DNA of 64,000 nt from Lampris incognitus (Eukaryota; Chordata; Actinopteri; Lampriformes; Lampridae), in contig NC_079215.1 of the NCBI RefSeq assembly GCF_029633865.1, positions 52,883,985 through 52,947,984 of the forward strand, written 5' to 3'. Of the stretch, positions 685-64,000 are shown one piece after another (the first letter of the stretch is position 1; each line of letters starts with the position of its first letter). A program made the position numbers and the translations under genes. The notes beneath the pieces were generated by a model. It did not search any database. It was not told the DNA's origin and worked only from the letters and a program-made list of their open reading frames with translations.

Positions 685-834
685 TGTAGCGAATGCGGGG
701 GACACCGCAACCACAGGAACTGCCGCGGCCGGGAAGCGAACCCTTGTCGCCCGCACCGCAGGAGAAAGCGCTAACCGCTCGACTAAAGGGTCAGACTTTT
801 TAGCAAGCGTGGCTAGTTATCCATCCACGTTACA
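685..834 (-). repeat. LTR of the miniature element (left copy)
   Basis: 150 bp with TG...CA ends on the minus strand. Box A (TAGTCGAGCGG on minus) lies at 775-785 and box B (GGTTCGCTTCC on minus) at 732-742. The tRNA-like half and the CGCTACA end differ from the other LTR at only about five of ~112 positions. The part nearest the TGTAACG end is much more diverged and shorter. Confidence 0.75.
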
Positions 835-944
835 CTAGCCCCCTCCTTCGGGAAGCGCGTCCCTGCACTTAAGCATATCAGCTCCTTCACGCCTCATACG
901 CTTCCGATGGCCTTACGGTCGCTCCATCCCACTTCTGACACCAA

Positions 945-1101
945 TGTAGCGAATTCGGGGGACAACGCAACCACAGGAACTGCCGCGGCCGGGAAGCGAA
1001 CCCTTGTCGCCCGCACCGCAGGAGACATCGCTAACCGCTCGAGTAAAGGGTCAGACCCGCCGGCCAGCGGCCAGCGTGTCTACTTGTCCATGCACGTTAC
1101 A
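945..1101 (-). repeat. LTR of the miniature element (right copy)
   Basis: 157 bp with TG...CA ends. Box B on the minus strand is at 992-1002; box A has one substitution (TACTCGAGCGG). On the minus strand it is followed at once by the primer-binding-type site at 944-928. Confidence 0.75.
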
Positions 1102-1351: not shown

Positions 1352-1509
1352 TGTAACGTGCTTGGATAAGAAGACACGCTGGCCGCTGCCTGGCGGGTTT
1401 GATCTTTTAGTCGAGCGGTTAGCGATGTCTCCTGCGGTGCGGGCGATACGGGTTCGCTTCCCGGCCGCGGCAGTTCCTGTGGTTGCGTTGTCCCCTCGAA
1501 TTCGCTACA
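1352..1509 (+). mobile_element. Solo LTR of the same tRNA-like miniature family
   Basis: 158 bp from TGTAACG to CGCTACA in the opposite orientation to the neighbouring element. It is flanked on both sides by a perfect 4-bp duplication, ATAC (1348-1351 and 1510-1513). Box A TAGTCGAGCGG is at 1408-1418 and box B GGTTCGCTTCC at 1451-1461, spaced as in a tRNA gene. A D-stem (GTCG/CGAT) and a T-stem (CGGG/CCCG) can be drawn. No internal region is attached, as expected after LTR-LTR recombination. Confidence 0.8.
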
Positions 1510-12572: not shown

Positions 12573-12812
12573 TGTAGAGCCGAAGGAACGGAGAAGACCG
12601 TAGGTTCACACTTTAGCCGTGTAGGCAACTTTCTTTAATCAACGGTAAATCAGAGAGACAACAAAACCACAGCTCGACTGAGCGGAGGCGGCAAGAATCC
12701 CAGAAAACTGGCTGAACAACCATAACTTAACCCTGCGTTAACCTGCCAGGACAACCCTGACTTAACCCTTAGTTCCTGGGGTGAATTCTATCCCCAATAC
12801 GTGTCCACCACA
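12573..12812 (-). repeat. Gypsy LTR (3' LTR of the element)
   Basis: 240 bp, TGTAGAGCC at its left edge and CCACCACA at its right edge, nearly identical to the copy at 16750-16989. Confidence 0.9.
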
Positions 12813-15800
12813 TGAGCCCCCCCAGAATTCGCCCTAGTAATCAAAGTCAGGCAGGCGCGGACGGCCTGTCGTCCCCCCGCGGCAGCTCCGGGTAACAGGG
12901 GCCGGAGTGTCTCTGGGAGGCATTGACGCGGGCCTGTGGAGGTCGGCCTGAGGAGCAGAAGAGGCAGCGCGGGCCTCCACGGGGGGAGGAGGCGGAGCCG
13001 GGGGACGACCACGACGAGGAGGTTGGGCTAACTCCAACGGCTGCGTCAAGTCCAGGTGTGTGGGTTTAACTCGGTCCACTGAAACATGCTCGGCCGTGCC
13101 CCCAAAATCCACCACCAGGTGCTTAGTTCCCCATTCCAGGACGCGGAAGGGGCCGTCATAAGGGGGTTGCAGAGGGGGGCGGTGTGCGTCGTGACGGATG
13201 AACACGTAGTCCGCTGACTGCAGACCTGGGGGCACCCGGGACACCGGAGCGCCGTGTTGGGCGGTAGGGACGGGTGTGAAAGCTCTGACCCCGTCCAGCA
13301 AGGAGGCACGTTGGTCCACAGCTGACCAGGGACGCGTTGCTTTGGGCATGAAATCGCCTGGGACTCGCAGCGGCGTGCCGTACACCAGCTCCGCAGAGGA
13401 GGCTTGTAGGTCTTCCTTCGGGGCGGTCCGCAGGCCCAGCATGACCCATGGGAGCTTGTCGACCCAGTTGCAGTCCTTGAGAGTAGCCCGAAGTGCAGCC
13501 TTCATGGACCGGTGGAAGCGCTCACATAGGCCGTTCGCCTGAGGGTGGTAGGCAGTAGTGCGGTGAAGCTTGACGCCCAGAGCCTCACCCACAGCATTCC
13601 ATAGCTCTGAGGTAAACTGTGGCCCGCGGTCAGATGAAAGGTCGGAAGGCGTACCGAAACGTGAGACCCACGACCCAATAAAAGCCCGGGCCACATCAGC
13701 AGACGTCGTGGATGCCAGGGGAACAGCTTCAGGCCAGCGCGTAGTCCTGTCCACCACAGTGAAGAGGTAGGTGAACCCATGGGAGGGGGTAGGGGACCAA
13801 CCAGGTCGACGTGGACATGGTCAAATCGTCTCTCCGGCACTGCGAAGCGTTCCAGGGGCGCCTTAATGTGGCGGTGTATATTAGCCCGCTGACAGGCAAC
13901 ACACGAGTCGGCCCACGCTTTCACGTCTCTCTTAAGTCCCTCCCACACAAACTTAGCAGAGATCAGGCGCACGGATGGCTTACCGCCTGGATGAGAGAGG
14001 CCGTGCACAGCTTCAAACACGGGGCGTCTCCAGCTGTCCGGGACGATGGGCCTGGGCTGTCCTGTGGAGACGTCACACAGGAGGGTGACACCTGTGTCGC
14101 TGAAAGGAACGTCCTGCAGGCGGAGCCCCGTGTCGGAGGTCCGAAGACGGAGGATGCTCGGGTCCGTGGCCTGGTCAGCGGCCATCTGTGCATAGTCCAG
14201 GCCTAGGTGGACCGCTCCAATCACTGCCCTAGAGAGGCAGTCAGCTACCTGGTTAGACTTACCAGCGACGTGCTGGATGTCGGTAGTGAATTCCGAAATG
14301 TAGGAGAGTTGTCGCTGCTGGCGAACGGACCATGGCTCGGCCGTCTTGGACATGGCAAACGTGAGGGGCTTGTGGTCCACGTACGCAGTAAACTCGCGGC
14401 CCTCTAGCAGGAACCGGAAATGCCGGACGGCGAGCCAGAGACCGAGGAGTTTCCTGTCAAAAGTACTATACTTGCGCTCTCGGGGTGTAAGCTGGCGACT
14501 GAAAAAGGCCAAAGGCTGCCAAGCCTCCCCAGCCCACTGCTCGTGAACCGCACCAACAGCATAGTCCGATGCATCCGTGGTTATGGAAATAGGCGCTGTA
14601 GGTGAAGGATGTGCTAACAGGGTAGCCTGGGAGAGCGCAGCTTTAGTCTCGGTGAATGCACGGTCCCGCTCTGCTGTCCAGTCGACCGACCACCTGGTTG
14701 GGGGACTTGCCTTTCAGCGCCTCGTACAGTGGCCGGATGATAAAGGCGGCTCAGGGAATGAAGCGGTGATAGAATGTAACCATCCCGATGAACTCCCTGA
14801 GCGCACGAGCTGTTTGGGGGCGCGGAAAGGCCGCCACCGCTTTCACCTTTGAGGGCAGGGGGACCGCCCCGTCCCCAGTGATGCGGTGCCCGAGGAAATC
14901 AATGGCCATCAGCCCGAACCAGCACTTCGCCGGGTTGACGATCAGCCCATGCTGGCTGAGGCGTGTGAAGAGGGCGTGAAGATGGGACAGGTGTTCTTCC
15001 TCGGAGGCGCTGGCGATGAGTATGTCGTCCAAATAGACGAAGATGAAAGGAAGGCCACGGAGCACTGAATCCATCAGCCGCTGAAAGGACTGGGCCACGT
15101 TTTTGAGTCCAAATGGCATTCGTAGGAATTCAAATAGGCCGAATGGGATAGTCACCGCTGTCTTGGGGATGTCCGAGGGGTGCACGGGAACTTGATGATA
15201 ACCACGGACCAGGTCGACTTTTGAGAAGACGCGTTTGCCAGACAGGTTTGCAGAAAAGTCCTGGATATGCGGGACAGGATAGCGGTCGGGCGTGGTGGCG
15301 TCATTTAGTCGGCGGTAGTCCCCACATGGGCGCCAACCTCCATCAGGCTTAGCGACGATGTGGAGTGGGGACGCCCACGGGCTGTCAGAGCGGTGGGTGA
15401 TCCCCATGCGTTCCAGGTGCTCGAACTCAGACTTGGCAATGGCGAGTTTGGCGGGGTCGAGACGCCTGGCTCTGGCGTAGACCGGGGGCCCCTTCGAAGC
15501 AATGTGATGCTCCACCCCATGCTTAGCGGTGGGTGCAGAGAAGGTAGGCTGGGTGAGGTCAGGGAACTCAGCGAGGAGGCGGTTGAACTTGTCTGCCTCT
15601 GAGAGAGAGTTGGCTAGACCTGCATAGGCCGCTTCCCCCCGCGTACATGCGAAGGAGGAGAAGGTTAAGGCATCGACCAGACGGCTGTTCTGAATGTCCA
15701 CTAGCAAACCGTAAGCGCACAAAAAATCAGCTCCGAGGAGGGGAAGCGTTACACTGGCCATGACGAACTCCCACGTGAAACGTTGTCCACCAACACACAG

Positions 15801-16749
15801 TTCTACAGACCTCACGCCGTAGGTGTGGATAGGGCTGCCGTCAGCCGTCGCCAACTGGGGGCCCCGCTCCCCGCCCATGATGTCGACGTCAGTAGCAGGG
15901 AGCACGCTTTTCTGTGCGCCCGTGTCACAAAGAAATCGCCGACCGGAGATGGTGTCGAGGATGAAGAGTAGCCTGCTCGTATCGCCAACACTCATGGCCA
16001 CTACTGAGTGTTGGCCCTCTCGTATCCCGTCGGCCTGTAGTTGCAGGGGGAACGGCACCATTTAGCTTTCGCACCAAATCGAGCGTGGTACATACCTGTA
16101 GAGTCCAGAGGGCTTGTAGCGGTCTGACGCTGTGGCGCCACCGTCGGGCCACGCCCGCGATGTCGGCGGGGGGCCAGTGAAGGTAGGAGCCAGCACCCCG
16201 GCATGGGAGGAATGTTGTGTAGCGACGAAGAATCGGTCAGCCTCCTTTGCCAGCTCACGGGGATCAGTGATGGTGGAGTTAGCGAGCGCAGTCTGGACGT
16301 GGGGCGGCATGTTGCGCAGAAACAGCTCCATAAACAGGAAACATGGCTTTTCTTGACCCAGTAGGTTTAACATCCTGCTCATTAGCTCCGATGGTTTGCC
16401 ATCTCCCAAGCCCTGAATTGCGAAGAGGCGACGTGCTCTCTCCGTTGTTGACAGTTCAAAAGTTTCAAGGAGGAGATTCTTAAGTGCGGCGTATTTACCA
16501 TCGGCCGGTGGGTTGGTTATGAAACCGCTTATCCTGGAAGCCGTAGCGCCCCCCAGCGCTGCCACTACGTAGTAGCACCTGGTCTCGTCTGCTGTTATGT
16601 CTCTGAGCGCGAACTGTGCCTCAGCCTGCGCGAACCATGTAGCCGCGGAAGACTCCCAAAACTCCGGCAGTTTAATTGCAACGGCGTTCGTAGCCATAAT
16701 GTGTGTGGTTTCAGAAAACTTATCCGAAAACCGACGTCGGGGTCACCAG

Positions 16750-16989
16750 TGTAGAGCCGAAGGAACGGAGAAGACCGTAGGTCCACACTTTAGCCGTGTA
16801 GGCAACTTTCTTTAATCCACAGTAAATCAGAGAGACAACAAAACCACAGCTCGACTGAGCGGAGGCGGCAAGAATCCCAGAAAACTGGATGAACAACCAT
16901 AACTTAACCCTGCGTTAACCTGCCAGGGCAACCCTGACTTAACCCTTAGTTCCAGAGGGGAATTCTATCCCCAATGCGTGTCCACCACA
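16750..16989 (-). repeat. Gypsy LTR (5' LTR of the element)
   Basis: 240 bp. On the minus strand it is followed by the primer-binding-type site and the gag region, which identifies it as the upstream LTR. Confidence 0.9.
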
Positions 16990-16993
16990 TTAT

Positions 16994-41755: not shown

Positions 41756-41849
41756 CCATCTCTCTCGTGCCGTGGCCTGTTCTCCCCCCAAGCAGCCGCA
41801 ATCTGACTACAAACTGCGTCTTGGTCAGAGATGAAATATCAACGACTTA

Positions 41850-42015
41850 AGTGAGACTAGCCCCTAGCTAATGGGTCCGACCCTTTAGCCGAGCGGTTAG
41901 TGATGTCGCCTTGTGGTGCAGTACACCCCATATCGAATCCCGCACCGGGCAAGAAAATAACCGGTTACATTGGTGGCAGCGGTGGCCAACGTGTCTACTT
42001 ATCCATGCACGGTAT
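41850..42015 (+). repeat. tRNA-like LTR remnant with primer-binding-type site
   Basis: The tRNA-like core has box A TAGCCGAGCGG (41886-41896) and a box B-like TATCGAATCC (41931-41940), the same 33-34-bp spacing as the copies near 1 kb. It ends in CGGTTACA at 41969 and is followed by TTGGTGGCAGCGGTGG (41970-41985), a primer-binding-type site. Directly after that comes CAACGTGTCTACTTATCCAT, which is the inverted start of the LTR family found near 1 kb. The copy is therefore a mosaic. Confidence 0.65.
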
Positions 42016-42123: not shown

Positions 42124-42457
42124 GGGCGGCACGGTGGTACAGTGGTTAGCGCGGTCGCCTCACAGCAAGAAGGTCCTGGGTTCGAGCCCCGGGGTGGTCC
42201 AGCTCTGGGGGGTCGTCCTCTGTGTGGCGTTTGCACGTTCTCCCCGTGTCTGAGTGGGTGTCTCCGGGTGCTCCGGTGTCCTCCCACAGTCCAAAGACCT
42301 GTGGGTCAGGTGAATCGGCCGTACTAAATTATCCCTAGGGTGTGAGTGAGTGATGGCCTGGCGGCCTATCCCCGCCTGCCGCTCAATGCCTGCTGGGATA
42401 GGCTCCAGCATCCCCGCGACCCTGAGAGCAGGATAACCGGTTTGGATAATGGATGGA
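42124..42457 (+). mobile_element. Full-length V-SINE-like element
   Basis: The head GGGCGGCACGGTGGTACAGT contains box A; GGGTTCGAGCCCCGG is box B. The V-domain follows (TGTGTGGCGTTTGCACGTTC, GGGTGCTCCGGTGTCCTCCC), then the 3' part and a GATAATGGATGGAT tail. Near-identical flanks TTAAATACTTAG (42112-42123) and TTAAAGACTTAG (42458-42469) are its target duplication. Confidence 0.9.
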
Positions 42458-42469
42458 TTAAAGACTTAG

Positions 42470-42863
42470 TGGTAAATAAATATATATAAATAGGCCTACA
42501 CAAAGGTAGGTTTACTGTATAATTGACCTAAACTTGGAATGTTTTTGAAGGTAGGCTTCTGCTTGCTCTACATGCTCTGTGGATTTAATGACTGAAAATG
42601 CAAATAATCAGTCTGAGGACTTCTGAGTGTGCGCGCGCACCGTGGACGGGACAGTTTGACTAACCCGTTTCGTTTCAACTGGGGCAGGATGCTCATGGAG
42701 ACTCCAAGACGAATGAAAACCAATAAGAGCCCATATATCATCCTATTTTAGCAATTCCTCAGTAAATCCTTCGCTATCAGCTATTAAATGCCACGTAGGA
42801 GGAATTGGAGTGAGGTACATCTATCTACACATATATTTTCGGAATGTGTGTGGGTATGTAGTG

Positions 42864-43498: not shown

Positions 43499-43656
43499 TT
43501 CTTCTAGTAATTTAATACAGATGTAAACTACTAATAAGACACGTTAGCCCCTAGCTAACGGGTTTGACCCTTTAGCCGAGCGGTTAGTGACGTCGCCTTG
43601 TGGTGCAGTACACCCCGTATCGAATCCCGCACCGGGCAAGAAAATAACCGGTTACA
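43499..43656 (+). repeat. LTR-like element with tRNA-like core (second subfamily)
   Basis: 158 bp from TGTAGCGGGG to CCGGTTACA. Box A TAGCCGAGCGG (43573-43583) and box B-like GTATCGAATCC (43617-43627) keep tRNA spacing. The first ~60 bp do not match the family near 1 kb, while the core does. It is directly preceded by CCGCTACAT, so the left junction is a small palindrome (CCGCTACAT/TGTAGCGG). No clear target duplication is visible. Confidence 0.6.
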
Positions 43657-43669
43657 CAGACGTAAGTCC

Positions 43670-44305: not shown

Positions 44306-45021
44306 GTGAGACCGCCGGGGTGCACACTTATCCGGGGCGGTAGTTGCGTTGGCATGCCCGCTGCCGCAGATCCCTGACGGCACTTATCGCCCAGGCGGAT
44401 ATTCCGGCGGTCAGAATAGCGGCGCGCCGCGTAGTGCGGTGGGCTATCTGCGGCACATCTCACGAGCGTGCCACGGTTTCAGGATTGGGGAACGGGGCAG
44501 GCTTAGTCATCGTCTGTTTTGCGGTCTCTCCCCAAATTAGGTTATTCGTTCTTACTTTCTTCTTAACACACTCGTTCTTAGGGGTTTCCGTTCCGTTGTC
44601 CTGGGTGACGTGGACGGTGTTATCCACGATGGTTATAGGGAATTCTACACCTTGTCGGTGTGTACCACAGTATCCGATCACACGTGCTGATACCATGTGA
44701 AAGAATCCAGCTGATGTCCATCACAATGGACTGTGTGGTGATGTAAAGCACAATGTCTAACCAAAACTAGTTTTCAAACAACACTCCATCAAATATTTCA
44801 GACCTCGTTACCGTTGATGTAGACAACAAGAAATGTGTATCACAATACAACAACATCCCAATGTTATCCTGGTACCATACCACCGAAAGACGATAAATGG
44901 TCATATTGAGTCAATGCCCAGCTCTACTTGGCGATAGTTTCTAGCCTGTTTCCTTTTCCTCCCAGTCCTCCAGGCACTCTCCCTCCGTCTTCTCCCATAG
45001 GGTGAGGTGAACTCCGCTGCA

Positions 45022-48000
45022 ATGGAGGTGAGCACCCTTCCTATGGAGCTGTGGAGAGTGATCCTGGCCTACCTTCCTCTTCCTGAACTAGGCCGCTGCT
45101 GCCTGGTGTGCCGTACCTGGAGAGAACTCATTCTCTCGCTGGATAACACACGCTGGAAACAGCTCTGTCTGGGACACGCTGAGTTCCGACACCCCAACTG
45201 GCCCAATCGACCCGACCAGGAGCCCTCTTCGTGGAGGGAGGCCCTGAAGCAGCATGCGCTCGCCAGCCGCACGTGGACTCAGAATGGCTCCGAGGTCCAG
45301 TCCTCCACCTGCCTCCACCTTTTCAGGCGAAGGAAAGACCGTAGAGATTGGCATGTCGGACCTGGGTGTGAGTTTGAGACCCTTTGGGGGGCCCTGGAAG
45401 TTGCAGGTCCGTATGACCGTGTGGTTCTCCACCCAGGGGTGTATGAGGAGCAGGCTGAAGTGTCACTAAAGGTGCCTGTGGAGCTGTACGGGCTGGGTCA
45501 GCTGGGGGAGGTGTCACTGCTGGTATGTATGGAGCAGCAGTGCCCTACGGCTCGGCTGTGTAATCTTGTGTTCATGCCAGCCTGGTTCTCCACTATAGTC
45601 TACAAGGTGAGAGCACATCGTTGTGGTCGTAAGCAGGTCTGAATGTTATTGAAGAAAATCGACATTGTGATATGTACTGCAATATTAAAGAATGAAAAGG
45701 ACTTACATAATTTAATAAGATATATGCCATTTTTAAATTTCATATACCCATCTGCAAAGAACTGACCACTCTAACAATAATTGGGGTGATTTTTTGGGGG
45801 GGGGGTATGGCAGTTGTCCAAGAAGTCATCAAGTAGACTTAATCATATATTATTTGTCAGATACACTACAATATTTTTCTTCAATGGTAGTCATAAAAAA
45901 GCAGACTTTGATAGATTTTGTTTTTTATCAAGCAGAAAGCATTTTAGCCTAACTTAACTGATGGGCCCTATTTGCCATAAACGGCATCCTTTGCAATGTG
46001 ACTATTGCACTCGTGCATATTGCATTGTTGATTCTAAACTGATTTGTTGCTCAGACCTCTTGCTCTAGCTGCTTCTCTCTATAAACGTTTTTTCCGGATG
46101 CTTAGATAATCTTAAAAATAATCTTGGTGGAATTACTTGACACTGTGTGTGCAAAACTACAGCCTATAATTATAGTTCTTCAACTATATCTCAACTTTCA
46201 TCTCTTTTTGGGTATCTCTGTATGACTGCCCTTTTCTCTCTTGTTTTGTTGCTCCAGACGTCATGGGGTCATGTCCAGCTGGATAACTGTAACTTTGAGG
46301 GAGCCCAGCTGCAGGTCAGAGGGCCAGGAACCTGCCAAGCTCGCTTCTGCTCCTTTTCACATGGCAGCTCAGCCCAGTTCCAGGGTGTTGCCCTCAGTTT
46401 ACTAGACAGCTGTGACTTCTCTGGAAGTGACGCAGCATCTGTCACTATTGAGGGGCCCCTGGTGCCAGAGAGGAACTGGGCTTGCAAACACCTGGCTGCC
46501 CTGGCCCGAATGTTCGCATCCTGGGGCTTGCCAGGGAATAGTGGTCCTCCCGGGGGCTGTCAGGCTGGGAAAACTGCCCGACCCCAACCTCCTGGTGCAA
46601 ATGTCACTGTGGAGGACTGGAACAAAAATGAATGGCAAAAGAGGACTCGAATGGACGTATTGCATCAGGACACAGTGATTGAGCACAGCTTGAGTCAGGG
46701 TGAGCACAGTGAAGGAGAGGAGAACCAAAAAGGAGAAATGATGAGCGACATCAGCCCCTCATTTAGCTTAGATTACAAACTTCCTTTTGACAATCATGGC
46801 CTAGCCCACCATTTCAAGCCCCAGCCTGATGGCTCACTGCCCCCAGCCTCCTCTCTTGATCCCCCCTCTGTGACACCTGACCTTCTCTCCCTTCAGCAGG
46901 AGCTAGAGAGGGACCCTGAGGCAAAAATGTTGGCTACATCCATCCAGGGCTGCATCTTCAGGCGGTGCCTCTTCCGCGAGGGGAAAGGTGGTGTGCATGT
47001 GTGTAATTATGGACAGGCTCGACTGGAGGGGAATGTGTTCCGTGGGCTGAATTATGCTGTTCGCTGTATCCAGAATGCCACAGTAAGATAGCATCAAAAT
47101 TACTATTTTCATACAATGCAGAGATGTGTAAAGTCACATGGACAGATCCCATTGCATTTGGATTTGACACTTGCATTCCCTCATAGTTAAGATGTTGATG
47201 GGAGTCAGCAGGTAGTCCATCATATCTTATGTGGTTTGCCTTTGAGTAATGCCTATCAAAACATGGAAATGCACTAATCTAACCAAAAATGTTTCTTTCA
47301 GTGGGCTAGCTGAATGCACATGCACGTACGTTCGTTTTGCCACCATTTTTCATCATCTTATTTATTCATTCGCTCATTCTCTGCAAAATTCAAGATTCTT
47401 AACTGCAACTCACTTCAAATGTGAAAATGTTCAGCCACTGTATTGAATGTTTAAAACTTATCTCTATACCCAGAGAAACTAATGTTTGGGATATCCCAGA
47501 GTCGGTTAAAGTTCAATTTACTATTGTGCCGAGGAAATGTACTTTCTATTTTGATCTGATTTTTCAGCTTCCTCTTCTCTTGCCCCCTTCAGATAGTGAT
47601 GCTGCATAATGAGGTGAGTGAATGCCGTGCATCGGGTGTATTCCTTCGTCTCTCTGCTCAGGGGCTCATTGCGGAAAACAACATCCACTCCAATGGGGAA
47701 GCAGGGCTGGACATACGCAAAGGGGCCAACCCCATCATCCTGGTAACTGCCGCGCCACTATCTCCTAATGTGCATAGAAACTTAACCCACAAAACGAATT
47801 GGCACAATGGATCCTATTCATGTGACTAATTTGATTAAATCTGATTGGACTCTGATGTTGGAGGTTATTGACTTATTGATTTTATAGGAAATGTGCCACA
47901 CGCTTTTTGCTGATGTATGGAGGGCTCACACCTGATGTGAATGATGCTATAACGTTAGGATGATGAGTAGATCTCAAGATGCATGGTTGATTGATTTTTA

Positions 48001-51000
48001 TTTTAGTGTCATACACCATTTTTGGTGCCCAGGCCCCATGGGCTTACAAGACACTAGACATAATGATCACAACAAAGGGGTTACTATAAACATCCAATTA
48101 AAAATATTTTTTTTAAAAACAAAACAATCGACCAACAACAGGCCTATGTCCAACACAGGTCCGTTCTCCACATCGTAATTTCTAGTGGAGATGAACCTTC
48201 TGTATATCGAAAGCAAATGTTAAATCAGCATGTAAATGAAGAACCGTTCCTCTTTTCCATGCTCTTTTGATGTATTGAGCTCCCATGGACATCTTCAGAA
48301 AGCAAAAAATAAAGCCTTTGTCCATCATCAAAGGGAAAGTGAATCACTGGTTTCTTGTTCACTAAACAGCTGCCTCCTCAGGTCGTTATAAAAAGGGCAA
48401 TAAAACAAAAAAATGAACATTTTCAATTGGATTTAAGTAACGCAAGGTTATCATCCTTTCATCCTCGCAGAAATCACTAAGTCTCCCTGTTTCTGTCGCG
48501 AAGGGTTTGAGTATCAGATCTAAACTGGGCACACGCAGACCAAGTTGCAGCTGGATGCAACCGTTTATAGATTGATGGACATATTTCCTGTCATCTGCCC
48601 TTCTCCTTCCACAGTGCAACAGAATACACAGTGGTTTGCGTTCAGGCGTTGTTGTCCTTGGCAATGGGAAGGGCTCCATCCGGAGCAACCAGATCTATAA
48701 CAACAAGGAGGCGGGTGTCTACATTCTCTTCAGTGGAAATCCTGTGGTAAGGTAGGTGAGACCGCCATACCGTAAAATGGACTACATTTATATAGCGTCC
48801 ATATTCCATACTGTACTGAACCATCCAGCAAAGTGTAGCCACTGTTCACAACACTGCTGGTATTCTATAGGTCAACGAGTTTAAAAACCAGAGATTCAAT
48901 TGTTTGCCTCTAAAGTCAAACAACACCCCCCCCCCTCAGAATGCTTCATATCGAAGCCATAGAGCAATTGTGTCGAAGAACTCGTAGTTTTGATATTTGC
49001 TCTCTCCCAGCGCATAAAGTGAGTGTCTCACTTTCTCTCTTAGTGGGAATCACATCTTCCGGGGCCAGGCGGCGGGGATTGCCGTAAATGAAAATGGCAG
49101 AGGGATGATAGTAGGTGTGTAAATGGATGTGTTGTTATCTATTACACACTATCGTCATAGCCATGAGTTAGTGCACACTTTAAGATCTCCCTTTACCAAT
49201 TTGCCACCTATTAAATACAAAAGAGCTAGATGCACTTTTACACCGCAAAATATGCACTCTGCTGCCCCTACTCCAGAGAATGTGATCCGAGAGAACCAGT
49301 GGGGAGGTACAGACATCCGTAGAGGAGGGGATCCTGTCCTGAGAAACAATTACATCTGCCACGGCTACTCAGACGGAGTGGTGGTGGGTGAGAGGGGCCG
49401 TGGACTTATCGAGGGAAACCACATCTACTGTGAGTGATCACATCCTGAATGCTCCATTGAGCTCATGTTCATTACTTTTGTTTCTTTAACTCGTGCCCTT
49501 GGTTCAGTCTCTGCCCTTGATTCGGTCTCTGCCCATGGTCTCTTTATATTTTACCCACACCGAAGTCCTTGCCCTTTTCTGGTTCATTTAGGTAACAATG
49601 GCTGTGGCGTGTGGGTATTGTCCTCCAGCCTACCACAGCTACTGCATAACTACATCACTCACAACCGTATGTATGGGCTGGCCGTGTTCTGCCGGAAGGA
49701 CCCTGAGAATAGAGAGGAGAATCAGGCTGGCCTGGGAGGGGGCGGTGCAGGAGGAGGCGGAGGAGAAAGGAGAGAGGGACGAGGTCAGGAGAACTTGAAT
49801 GAGGAAGGAGAGCTGTTTGCATGGGAGAGTGATCTGGACAGCGAGGACGAGAGATACACCGCCCGGCGGTCCATCAGTGTGGCCCTGGTGGAGAGCAACT
49901 GCATGAGCCACAATGGAGGTAATAAGAGTCTCGGCATCACTTAGTATCAAAGAGACTCTTAAGTTCGAAGAACTTCCCTGATTGCTTTGGTATAGAGAAA
50001 CTTACCACTTTGGACTGTGTTGGGCTTCAACACAGCCCAAAACGGCAATAGTTTCAGCATTCTAAAACCATTACATATCACCCTTTCCAAAAACTGGAAG
50101 CTCCCAAGAACAAACGTGAACCAATACTTTTAAGGTGCAGTTATGTACCTGATATTCCTCATCACATAAATGGCCAGATTCGGATGGCTCCTCGCCGCTG
50201 TTCTTTTTCACTTCATCTTTCTCTTTCCTTCCATATATGTCTAGCAGTAGGTCTGTACGTCAAGAGCAGCGAGCCACTGAACGTCATCGCCAACCTTATA
50301 AACTGTAACCGTGGCACTGGTATCGCCGTGCTACAGAGCAGTCAGCTGACCCGGCTGGTTACAAACTGCATCCTCGATAATACTCGCGATGGTGTCACTG
50401 TGGACAAGGATTGCTGGGTGGAGATCCGTGGTAATGGCATCTACAAAAATGGAGGTCACGGTGTCTGTTTTAATGGGGATGGACAGATTGGGGAGAATGA
50501 TGTGGTTGGTAACCGTGGATACGGGATTCAGGTCTCGGGCAGTGCAGATGTCAAGGTGAGTTGGAGCTTGACATGAACACTTAAAACAAATATCCAGCAA
50601 ATTGACAAAGTTATGACTAACTTCATGACACTACACGTTATATCAGACACCCCGGTTTCTTACCGAAATACTGCTCATTTCAGAATTTTACAAATGTGTT
50701 TTTCTATTATTATTTTGGTGCATTAGGTACTGTGGAACCGTGTCCAACCAGCACGAAGTTGTGGCGTTGCCATTCTAGGACAAGTAAAAGGAGCCATCCA
50801 CGACAACATCCTTTTCCAAGGCCACCCTGGATACACAAAACCACTGCTACACATTGACCCTGGAAATGAGAACTGTTCGCTGCGGAATAACAGCATCCTC
50901 AGACACACTAACAGGTAGCAAACCAACTACCAACATCCACTGCCAGCAGGGTGTCTGCACCCTACCTCGCACTTCTTTTTTCTCTACTTTCACCTGTATA

Positions 51001-60853: not shown

Positions 60854-62650
60854 TGTTGTTGTCAAGCCGTTTAGTCACGTATTTGGACTACAGTGCCGCC
60901 ACGAGGCAAGGAGTAGGCTTGCATATTTATGTGCGCGTGTGCGTGCGTGTTCTTCTTCGTCGATTTCTTCCTCCACTTCTTACTTCTTCTTCCTGTTCGT
61001 TTGGCGGTTGTAAAACTTAACTGGGAAATACCGTTTACTTATTTACTCGTATGCATTTAAGCCTGCGTCACAGAAAATTGAATCAGTCCATCTGCACGCA
61101 ACGTTTATTAGAGAAACGTTTCACCACTCGTCTAAGAGACCTCTTAAGTCATTTGGATGAGCGATGTAACGTTTCTCTCAAACAAACGTTGTGTCCGGAT
61201 AAACTGATTCAACGTTCTGTCATTTCCTTAGCTGGATTATTGAGCATGCGTCAAGACACCAAGCCTACATATTTCAGTATTGAGACGCTCATTTGAAACG
61301 GTCGGCTCCTGATGATCTCATAAAATATGTCTTTACCTCTCATTTGTATACCTTTGCTATTCGGTGCTTCCTTTAACCTCTCCGTGGCTTCCCTTTGCAC
61401 ACTTATAATGCACGCTGCTTTTCTCTTCTGTCTGTTGATGCTACGTTACAATAACCATGTTTTTTTTTTATTTCATCCCGGGTGTCTTTCTGCAGCCCCC
61501 CCACCACCACCACCACCACCACCACCACTTTGTTTTGAATATCACACAGCGACACCCTGCGAGTCTGGCGTCAAACGCAGTCTGAGCGTGGATTCGTTTC
61601 TAGACACGTGTTATTTAAACCACCAGCAGCAACGCTTACTCCGCTTTACATGCAGCCACGCTCGATGTACCCTTATCAGACGTCTCCCGGGCAACGGACG
61701 GTTTGGCTGTGAGAACGGGTTTTCCTCCAGCAGGGCGACCACCCGCCCGTACCTCAAAACCCCCCGTCTCCACCCCATGGACGATTGTACACATTGCGCA
61801 TCACGTTGCGGATGGCGGTGGACCCGGAGCAGAGTAAACTTGACGTCTGGCCAAAGAGGACGAGCGTCGGGGTCGAGTAACGCGGACGTTGGTTTATCTC
61901 GCCGTGTGTTGACCGTCGATTAAGCAAGGGGACGTTTTTCGCCAGAGTGCCGTCTCGCTAACTCACGGCTAACGGGTAGCTGCTTTGGCTAGCCAGGGGC
62001 CCTGTTCTGCTCATGCAAGACTTCCCGTGCCTCCATCACTTAGGGAAACCCAAGGTAGAGCCGCCACAACGATTTCGTCTCAACGGAAGGGTCGTCGCGA
62101 TATCGCCGAGGCGGTGAATGCACGGCCTTTCTTCGCCGCTATTGTAAAACTAATAAAAAGTCACCGGCTTATCGCTAGCTGCCCCTCCGCTTGGCTAGCT
62201 AAGTGGCAACCATCGGATGTCAGTGCGCCGCAGCTCGCGCAGATGTGGCGCGAGCTTGTTAATTAGCCTGCCGGTTTCGTGCTTTCATAACACGGCTGAA
62301 AACAACGTGGTGTTTGTGGACAATTTGATCAGCTTAAATCAGGATAGGCGTTACCCGTCGTGTGGAAATGCTGCTCGTTTACAGCACAAACTCCTCAGCT
62401 AAAAGTGAAGGGTGATCGCCTGCATCGCCTCACTGTCAAATATAGCCCCTTTAATCCCATTTGATCCTTCTCCTTATTTTATATCTCAGTCTACTTATAA
62501 CGTTCCCGTGTAATGATTATTATTATTGTTATTATCTTGATATCCCTCCATATAGCCTTTCTACTTTCACTCCATCTTGTCTCTGCCAAATGCCAAACTC
62601 TGTCCACCCCATTGCTCCCCATTTCCCCCTGTCCCTGTTTGTTTAGGACT
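60854..62650. promoter_or_regulatory. Shared POLR1E-ZBTB5 upstream interval
   Basis: This is the 1.8 kb between two divergent start codons. The part at about 61550-62290 is GC- and CpG-rich with no TATA box, consistent with a CpG-type promoter and the ZBTB5 5' UTR. The open frames in it (for example from 61327, with a CCA-repeat polyproline run) look like chance. A 135-bp foldback lies at 61078-61212. Confidence 0.5.
61078..61212. repeat. Small foldback element (135 bp)
   Basis: TTGAATCAGTCCATCTGCAC at the left mirrors the right end, which closes with ACTGATTCAA. Inside, GAGAAACGTTTCACCACTCG pairs with the GAGCGATGTAACGTTTCTC side. This is a common fish palindrome type and lies in the POLR1E-ZBTB5 promoter interval. 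Confidence 0.75.
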
Positions 62651-64000
62651 ATGGACTTCCCAGGTCACTTTGAGCAGATCTTCCAGCAGCTGAACTACCA
62701 GCGTGTCCATGGCCAGCTGTGCGATTGTGTCATTGTGGTGGGCAGCCGGCACTTTAAGGCCCACCGCTCGGTGCTGGCCGCCTGCAGCACCCACTTCCGA
62801 GCCTTGTTCACCGTTGCTGAGGGAGATGCTAGTATGAATATGATCCAGCTGGACAGCGAGGTGTGCATGACCGTAATTAAGATGACTATGAAGACACCAT
62901 AGAGGAGGATATTCATTAGTTGAAACTTTCACAGTGAATAAGAGGGTGAAAATTATACTGTCAGATGAATACAAAGATGACATATGGGGAGATGGATGGG
63001 GGGTATTGATATCATTATTCAGTGGAAACTAAAATGATCACTCTGATCATTCGTCATGTGTTATAAGATCATTACTCTTGTTTTACTGCCATCGGTGTTG
63101 CTGATTGATCAAACACCCATTTGTGTATATCCAGGTGGTGACGGCAGAGGCGTTTGCTGCCCTGGTGGACATGATGTATACCTCAACGCTGATGCTAGGG
63201 GAGAGCAATGTGATGGATGTCCTCCTAGCTGCCTCCCACCTGCACCTTAACAATGTAGTTAAGGCCTGCAAACATTACCTGACCACCCGCACCCTGCCCA
63301 TATCCCCCTCAGCTGACAGACCCACCCATCACCACCCACAGCCGGACCAGCAGAGGCACAGGCAGCAGCAACAACCGGCAGAGCTCACAGCCTCTGCTAA
63401 TGCAGCTACATCTAGGATGCAGCGCTCCTTTCTACTGCAGCAGTTGGGGCTAAGTCTGGTAAGTTCTGCACTTGGCGGAATGGAGGAGGACAGAGTTGGC
63501 AATGTGGTTGGTGGTGGAGTGGTTGAACAGAGGGGCTCTTTCCCTGTAAGACGCTTACACAAGCGCAAGCCCTGCCTTGCTGTGGCTTTGTCAGATGACA
63601 GACCTAGGCAGAGGCCACGCCCTTCGGCCGCTCCACGGGTTTTGTTAGGAGAGGAAAGGGTTAACGGGGAGAGGGAAGAAGGGACGCTACTTTCCCCGGA
63701 CTCCCACAAGATGGGGGATGAATCGAAATTGGATGTTGCCATTGTTGGATTAGTGGGGGTGTCTCAAGATGATCCTCAGATGCCAAGCCAGTCAGACAGT
63801 GGACACTGCAAAAAGGATAAATCAGGAAGGATGCAAGGGGGAGTGGGGAAGGAGGAGTACATAGAAGATGGTGATCCACAAGATGGCCGAGAGGGGGCAA
63901 AGGTCAAGTCAGGATTGGAGGAGGAGGACACACAAGAGCAGAAGGTAAAGTTCAGGCTTGATTTGCTGAATGTAGTAAAGTAGTAAACCCTCCTAGTCAT
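62651..64000 (+). CDS. ZBTB5: Zinc finger and BTB domain-containing protein 5, 5' part
   Basis: ZBTB5 is a nuclear BTB/C2H2 transcriptional repressor; human ZBTB5 represses p21/CDKN1A. Exon 1, 62651-62860, encodes MDFPGHFEQIFQQLNYQRVH to NMIQLDSE. Exon 2 starts at 63135 (VVTAEAFAALVDMMYTSTLM). Together they give the complete BTB domain (about residues 1-120), almost identical to human as I remember it. The linker keeps SRMQRSFLLQQLGLSLVSSA, FPVRRLHKRKP and PQMPSQSDSGH. The in-frame sequence can be read to 63944, where CAGAAG|GTAAAG is a good phase-0 donor; without splicing the frame would stop at 63981-63983, long before the C2H2 fingers. The fingers must lie beyond the window. Introns in this coding region are unusual, since the human CDS is, to my knowledge, a single exon. 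Confidence 0.93.

Follow-up and report, generated by a model that had tools for sequence, protein, structure and literature searches.

The element at positions 685 to 1101 of the window, by which we mean the whole stretch of 64,000 nucleotides of Lampris incognitus DNA analysed here, belongs to Helenus, an already published group of TRIMs, in which we place it by its described features rather than by alignment to named families. Its copies across the genome include mosaic LTRs that change from one subfamily to another at a preferred point just before the tRNA-like promoter. The best explanation of the data as a whole, in which we have considerable confidence, is a Helenus-group TRIM with an RNA polymerase III (Pol III) start before box A and strand transfer at that start.

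Anatomy and genomic copies of the element

The element lies on the minus strand and is 417 bp long, with a 5' LTR of 157 bp (945–1101; TG...CA, in full TGTAAC...CTACA), a non-coding internal region of 110 bp (835–944) and a 3' LTR of 150 bp (685–834), likewise with TG...CA ends. Two LTRs, a total length below 1000 bp and the lack of coding sequence (no ORF of at least 120 aa is listed within 685–1101) give it the TRIM form of Helenus, and both the internal region and homologous full elements are found elsewhere in the genome. The primer-binding site (PBS), TGGTGTCAGAAGTGGGAT (926–943, minus strand), starts one base beyond the 5' LTR, and at the other end of the internal region the polypurine tract (PPT), GAAGGAGGGGG-CTAG (835–849, minus strand), has its purines GAAGGAGGGGG at 849–839, after which CTAG abuts the 3' LTR. 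The first-pass annotation had set the same boundaries and had described two TG...CA LTRs separated by 110 bp, with a PBS next to one and a purine tract next to the other, all of which was confirmed on the minus strand. The LTR pair is only 85–86% identical, so this copy is old or partly converted; the flanking 4-mers, CTAC at 1102–1105 and ATAC at 681–684, agree at three of four bases and form an imperfect duplication. Nearby, the same family is represented by a solo LTR (1352–1509, plus strand; box A at 1408–1418, box B at 1451–1461) that is 92% identical to the 5' LTR of the element and is flanked by a perfect 4-bp duplication, ATAC, at 1348–1351 and 1510–1513.

The first TGG of the PBS presumably pairs with the CCA end of the tRNA. 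The 14-nt string TGTCAGAAGTGGGA from within the PBS also occurs in reverse primers for tRNA-Leu from three papers, labelled tRNA-Leu, LeuCAC (fly) and tRNA-Leu-CAA-2-1, which agree with the PBS at 15 of its 18 positions; the PBS of the element accordingly matches tRNA-Leu(CAA), as represented by published primers and fragments and not by tRNAs from this genome. For a related family, B, a published 18-nt Leu-AAG 3' fragment that terminates in CCA is complementary to the PBS at every base. Among the PBSs within four mismatches at loci L001–L120, 44 of 52 are exact to one of these two Leu 18-mers (40 and 4), and with loci L121–L126, fetched by exact PBS, the figure is 46 of 55; the counts for L001–L120 are subset counts in which a few loci overlap. 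The full elements examined have PBS and PPT in common, with single-base and PBS-type variants, and the combination of a cellular-tRNA PBS with a PPT is that of Helenus. One copy (L002) joins a family A leader to the second PBS type, with all three differences together, as would be expected if the primer tRNA had rewritten the PBS.

Across the 1.48 Gb of genome searched, a pattern with exact ends found 4947 LTRs, a lower bound as for all exact-pattern counts, and its reversed control found none. Searches with the LTR and the internal region returned 1366 and 1799 first-look candidates, respectively; the 40 scored for the LTR were all at least 96% identical, and the 40 scored for the internal region were 91–100% identical. 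Perfect 4-bp duplications flank 22 of 40 non-redundant insertions taken from loci L001–L050, chosen by similarity (shuffled mean 8.4, maximum 16 in 5000 shuffles), a count that retains, among its 18 imperfect rows, five (L035, L041, L047 and L048 twice) whose flanks come from a neighbouring internal region. All 22 perfect duplications read NTAN, and 13 of these are ATAT. A second sample, not chosen by similarity, comprised 30 LTRs that were the first matches on one contig (L051–L080): 24 are solo, and 8 of the 24 have perfect duplications (shuffled mean 4.8; 442 of 10,000 shuffles reach 8). Duplications of 4 bp, the animal type in Helenus, are present in both samples, more weakly in the one not chosen by similarity. 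Where a duplication in this second sample mismatches at its last base, G stands on the 5' side in eight of nine cases; this G may derive from the PPT end of the cDNA (GTAG, directly before TG) and have been carried along on insertion. Among the solo LTRs of L051–L080, the base directly 5' is G in 10 of 24, and the internal region also ends in G (GTAG).

These counts bear on the alternative that plain tRNA-derived SINEs were inserted in tandem and merely resemble LTRs. The tRNA-like core would suit such an origin, and the window also has a tRNA-derived SINE head at 42135; set against this are the TG...CA ends, the PBS and PPT common to the full elements examined, the 4-bp duplications at solo LTRs and full elements alike, and 4947 LTRs with fixed ends. 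Since the LTR ends do not vary and the genome holds solo LTRs as well as 4-bp duplications, we regard the tandem-SINE explanation as refuted and give it next to no probability. The census of full elements, solo LTRs and duplications that the first-pass annotation had called for yields thousands of LTRs, mostly solo in the sample read and with 4-bp duplications, and the outcome it had set against its TRIM reading, a tandem SINE without PBS/PPT conservation or 4-bp duplications, did not occur.

Several copies are of unusual structure. LTRs of differing subfamilies stand in tandem or hybrid arrays with a common internal region at L047, L089, L105, L041 and L049; TRIM variants at L121 and L126 have an internal region of ~47–54 bp, hardly beyond PBS plus PPT; and in a TRIM copy at L014 (1240–1468) the internal region holds ~229 bp of unrelated DNA rich in GCGAA/TTCGC. 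One LTR core pattern searched in viral contigs and one in other genome contigs matched none of either, and six LTR strings, at least one of them a loose variant not taken from the window, gave no match in literature text.

Family B is found at 41.8–43.7 kb of the window. It is represented there by a solo LTR (43522–43656, plus strand), flanked by CAGA at 43518–43521 and 43657–43660, and by a rearranged copy at 41840–42014. The latter consists of an LTR with a decayed 5' end (41840–41969, plus strand; start placed by eye), a PBS of the tRNA-Leu(AAG) type of which the first 15 nt are present (41971–41985, plus strand) and, joined to this PBS, a piece from the start of a family A-like LTR in inverted orientation (41984–42014, minus strand). 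Both here and at L002 (1775–1865), LTR pieces stand head to head, with inverted fragments following a PBS or an LTR start, and they look as if they were self-primed or auto-integrated cDNA. Elsewhere in the window, the plus strand holds F-box gene exons, which we take to be FBXO10-like, and a ZBTB5 BTB exon, at 45007–50576 and 62513–63983.

tRNA-like promoter and transcription signals of the LTRs

Each LTR of the element carries a box A and a box B on the minus strand, as do the LTRs of Helenus: TACTCGAGCGG (1035–1045) and GGTTCGCTTCC (992–1002), each with one mismatch, in the 5' LTR, and TAGTCGAGCGG (775–785) and GGTTCGCTTCC (732–742) in the 3' LTR. Box A, for which we used the consensus TRGYNNARNNG, begins at LTR nt 57. 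On both strands of the 64-kb window, a pattern of box A, 28–40 nt and box B with at most one box B mismatch occurs at three places, namely the 3' LTR, the solo LTR at 1352–1509 and the SINE head at 42135, compared with one match in total over 20 Markov-resampled windows (mean 0.05). A-type LTRs carry TAGTC, CGG and GGTTC; family B has TAGCC and lacks GGTTC. The SINE itself (42130–42470, plus strand; extent by eye) has a box A/box B head, and its core has GGTTAG and GTCGCCT in common with family B LTRs (by eye).

A tRNA-like body in the LTRs, as claimed in the first-pass annotation, is borne out by box A and box B at tRNA spacing and not by a tRNA fold. ARAGORN found no tRNA in the element, the proposed check of the LTR core against a tRNA model gave no tRNA match in Rfam at E up to 10, and the structures predicted for the LTR RNAs lack a cloverleaf and show no clear advantage over shuffled sequences (z −0.16 and −1.20; family B −0.97). 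A functional tRNA gene is rejected, since neither ARAGORN, Rfam nor folding gives a cloverleaf. The SINE head at 42135 also lacks an Rfam tRNA match and hits, weakly, only the mascRNA-menRNA family, which is tRNA-like (E 6.5), and failure of the LTRs in Rfam is therefore not evidence against tRNA descent.

A comparison of LTR subfamilies A, B and C (56, 6 and 14 copies) places the nine best-conserved 11-nt windows in LTR nt 45–63, a stretch that spans the first part of box A and ~12 nt preceding it. By eye, the 3' side of the tRNA-like body offers no partner for the segment that precedes box A, so a tRNA stem does not explain why this segment is conserved. Box B reaches 0.70 against a mean of 0.59; the stretch ranking tenth, nt 16–26, scores 0.848 versus 0.875 for the best and is unexplained by the Pol III start reading. 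The sense strand of the element contains no TTTT, and among A/C-type LTRs TTTT occurs in 1 of 70 versus 23.8 expected from Markov resampling, the copies being related; in the LTRs not chosen by similarity it occurs in 2 of 30, both times just upstream of box A. None of 76 LTRs contains TATAAA, and a single one has AATAAA.

A Helenus-type TRIM could also retain its tRNA-like part as a relic, with Pol II transcribing from a start that falls by chance just before the old box A. Imperfections in the boxes are in keeping with such decay, as the A-type box A has T where Kojima's motif has C, and box B has one mismatch. The absence of TATAAA, the near absence of AATAAA and the depletion of TTTT speak against a relic, as do the peak of conservation across subfamilies, which runs from the start region into the first part of box A, and mosaic breakpoints that lie at Pol III start spacing. 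On balance we consider a relic transcribed by Pol II unlikely.

Mosaic LTRs and the proposed start of transcription

Subfamilies A and C are distinguished by 35 diagnostic positions, and seven of the 100 A/C LTRs scored are mosaics, three of them noisy (L034, L053 and L060); five switch at nt 42–49, one at nt 49–64 and one at nt 81–90. A genome-wide breakpoint search, which covered nt 42–64 and nt 81–90, found 46 LTRs with a C-type U3 joined to an A-type core at nt 42–64 and 55 with the opposite arrangement. Of the latter 27 are usable, the 28 of the GCTAGC class, whose sampled members have a C-like U3, being left out and the partly C-like L119 being kept. The letter at nt 49 (by eye) is T in 32, G in 12 and A in 2 of the C-to-A mosaics, and G in 25 and T in 2 of the A-to-C mosaics; in unswitched LTRs, 30 of 33 A-type copies have T there and all 10 C-type copies have G, though the C-type R-pattern rows listed also show 8 A, 3 T and 2 C. 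By this measure the switch lies upstream of nt 49 in 57 of 71 placeable mosaics, compared with a length-expected share of 7/22; the corresponding binomial value of 6e-17 assumes independent events, and mosaic copies multiply, so they are not independent. The remaining 14 switches fall in the longer identical stretch, nt 50–63. Switches within the core (nt 81–90) number one C-to-A and no A-to-C genome-wide. With unswitched pattern counts of 791 (C) and 1536 (A) for R and 162 (C) and 991 (A) for the core, the core patterns are ~0.36 as sensitive, and ~11 core mosaics would be expected for the one found. Two core-A subtypes and two U3-A subtypes are involved, and the mosaic events probably number four or more.

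The switch point lies 8–14 nt upstream of box A. Type 2 Pol III promoters start transcription ~10–20 nt upstream of box A, and the first strand transfer of reverse transcription links the U3 of one RNA to the R-U5 of another at the transcription start. Since strand transfer joins U3 to R-U5 at the start, the cluster of mosaics is best read as a start site set by box A, which in the element itself would correspond to LTR nt 43–49 (1053–1059, minus strand) as the putative 5' edge of R.

The pairing of LTRs within elements complicates this picture. In nine elements (L088, L089, L090, L093, L102, L108, L040, L032 and L050, the last switching at nt 81–90) a mosaic 5' LTR is paired with a 3' LTR that has only the U3 in common with it; both LTRs are alike in three mosaic elements (L092, L099 and L105), and seven further sampled ones are unclassifiable. 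Standard strand transfer yields identical LTRs, so that unlike pairs require tandem transcripts or later gene conversion to be added. A tandem read-through RNA primed at its second PBS would produce the 5'-only pattern, and tandem arrays do occur (L047, L089 and L105).

The cluster at nt 43–49 might instead have arisen when LTRs exchanged sequence by ordinary gene conversion or unequal crossing-over, and it would then be uninformative on transcription. The nine unlike LTR pairs suit this explanation, as do the same tandem arrays and the family-mixed elements L041 and L049. However, the switches avoid the longer identical stretch at nt 50–63 (57 versus 14) and the core (1 seen, ~11 expected), and by eye the donor type persists to the LTR end in ~19 of 26 classified mosaics, these being 42 sites minus 16 whose LTR ends escaped the recognition rule. 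We therefore judge gene conversion or unequal crossing-over rather unlikely as the source of the cluster.

In the mechanism that we favour, RNA polymerase III would bind the tRNA-like promoter of the 5' LTR and start 8–14 nt before box A, and the transcript would cross the short internal region into or beyond the 3' LTR, there being no TTTT in the element. A Leu tRNA would prime reverse transcription by an enzyme from an autonomous element, probably Gypsy. Strong-stop DNA would stop at the transcription start and jump to the short matching R in the 3' LTR, either on the same RNA or on a different one. Synthesis of the second strand would be primed by the purine tract, and integrase would put the cDNA into NTAN targets with a 4-bp duplication. 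The more specific proposition that breakpoints between LTR subfamilies are a sequence-only record of strand transfer stands, in our estimate, evenly between right and wrong: it would place the start 8–14 nt upstream of box A, make this a Pol III-transcribed Helenus in a vertebrate, give an R of ~8–14 nt if transcripts stop at the T-run before box A, and ascribe 5'-only mosaics to the copying of tandem read-through transcripts primed at the second PBS.

A search for a helper, as the same PBS with another leader, gave 346 matches, and the six loci read were all further TRIM variants, one (L121) with an internal region of ~47 bp. The window contains a Gypsy element at 12573–16990 on the minus strand, with 241-bp LTRs that are 96% alike, ATAA flanks on both sides (by eye), and separate ORFs that encode parts of gag (DUF7041), protease, RT and integrase; it is not supported as the helper, as its PBS, TGGTGACCCCGACGTCGG, differs.

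Comparison with known systems

The first-pass annotation had put forward a tRNA equivalent of the plant Cassandra TRIMs in a vertebrate as a candidate for something new. The kind is already described, fish included, in the available sections of Kojima 2024 (PMC10886601), where Helenus comprises TRIMs with tRNA-like sequence in the LTRs from fungi, animals and one plant, with hosts among zebrafish (LTR-11_DR), other ostariophysan fish, sturgeon, paddlefish and coelacanth. In the same sections animal duplications are 4 bp, vertebrate PBSs are of the His, Leu and Lys types, and zebrafish LTR-11_DR has 5575 LTRs and tandem arrays. A Gypsy element is proposed there as the helper class for animal Helenus, and Pol III transcription is proposed and called unproved. 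The earlier interpretation overall thus stands for TRIM structure, tRNA-like promoter, 4-bp duplications and PBS/PPT conservation, and falls for novelty; its SINE/LTR hybrid borrowing retrotransposon proteins agrees with these sections of PMC10886601, while the six loci read for a helper contained none.

Because the available text of Kojima 2024 (PMC10886601) leaves Pol III promoter activity open, the mosaics bear on mechanism. With 4947 exact-ended LTRs in distinguishable subfamilies, they yield a quantitative prediction open to testing, namely that transcription starts at a specified site in the LTR, and they suggest a general method in which mosaic breakpoints between LTR subfamilies would reveal where transcription of an element begins, with no need for RNA.

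The element resembles Helenus as a TRIM with a box A and box B in each LTR, a Leu PBS to the tRNA 3' end, a PPT, 4-bp duplications and thousands of copies; it differs from described Helenus in that its LTRs fall into at least three subfamilies and include mosaics, and in that its PBSs are of two Leu types. The Ty3/Gypsy element at 12573–16990 has LTRs ending in CA like those of the element, whereas its PBS is different. tRNA-derived SINEs are likewise short and non-autonomous, with a tRNA-like Pol III promoter, but are not known to have LTRs, a PBS, a PPT or fixed 4-bp duplications, and the element is not a single unit without LTR, PBS and fixed-length duplication. Cassandra, according to the available part of PMC7215508, likewise combines a Pol III promoter within the LTR with a short R and tandem arrays, and read-through transcripts are reported there; its R is 18 bp as told in PMC10886601. 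It differs in carrying 5S rRNA instead of tRNA sequence and in being a plant TRIM, and if our reading is true, vertebrate LTR retrotransposition can use Pol III templates, as Cassandra does in plants.
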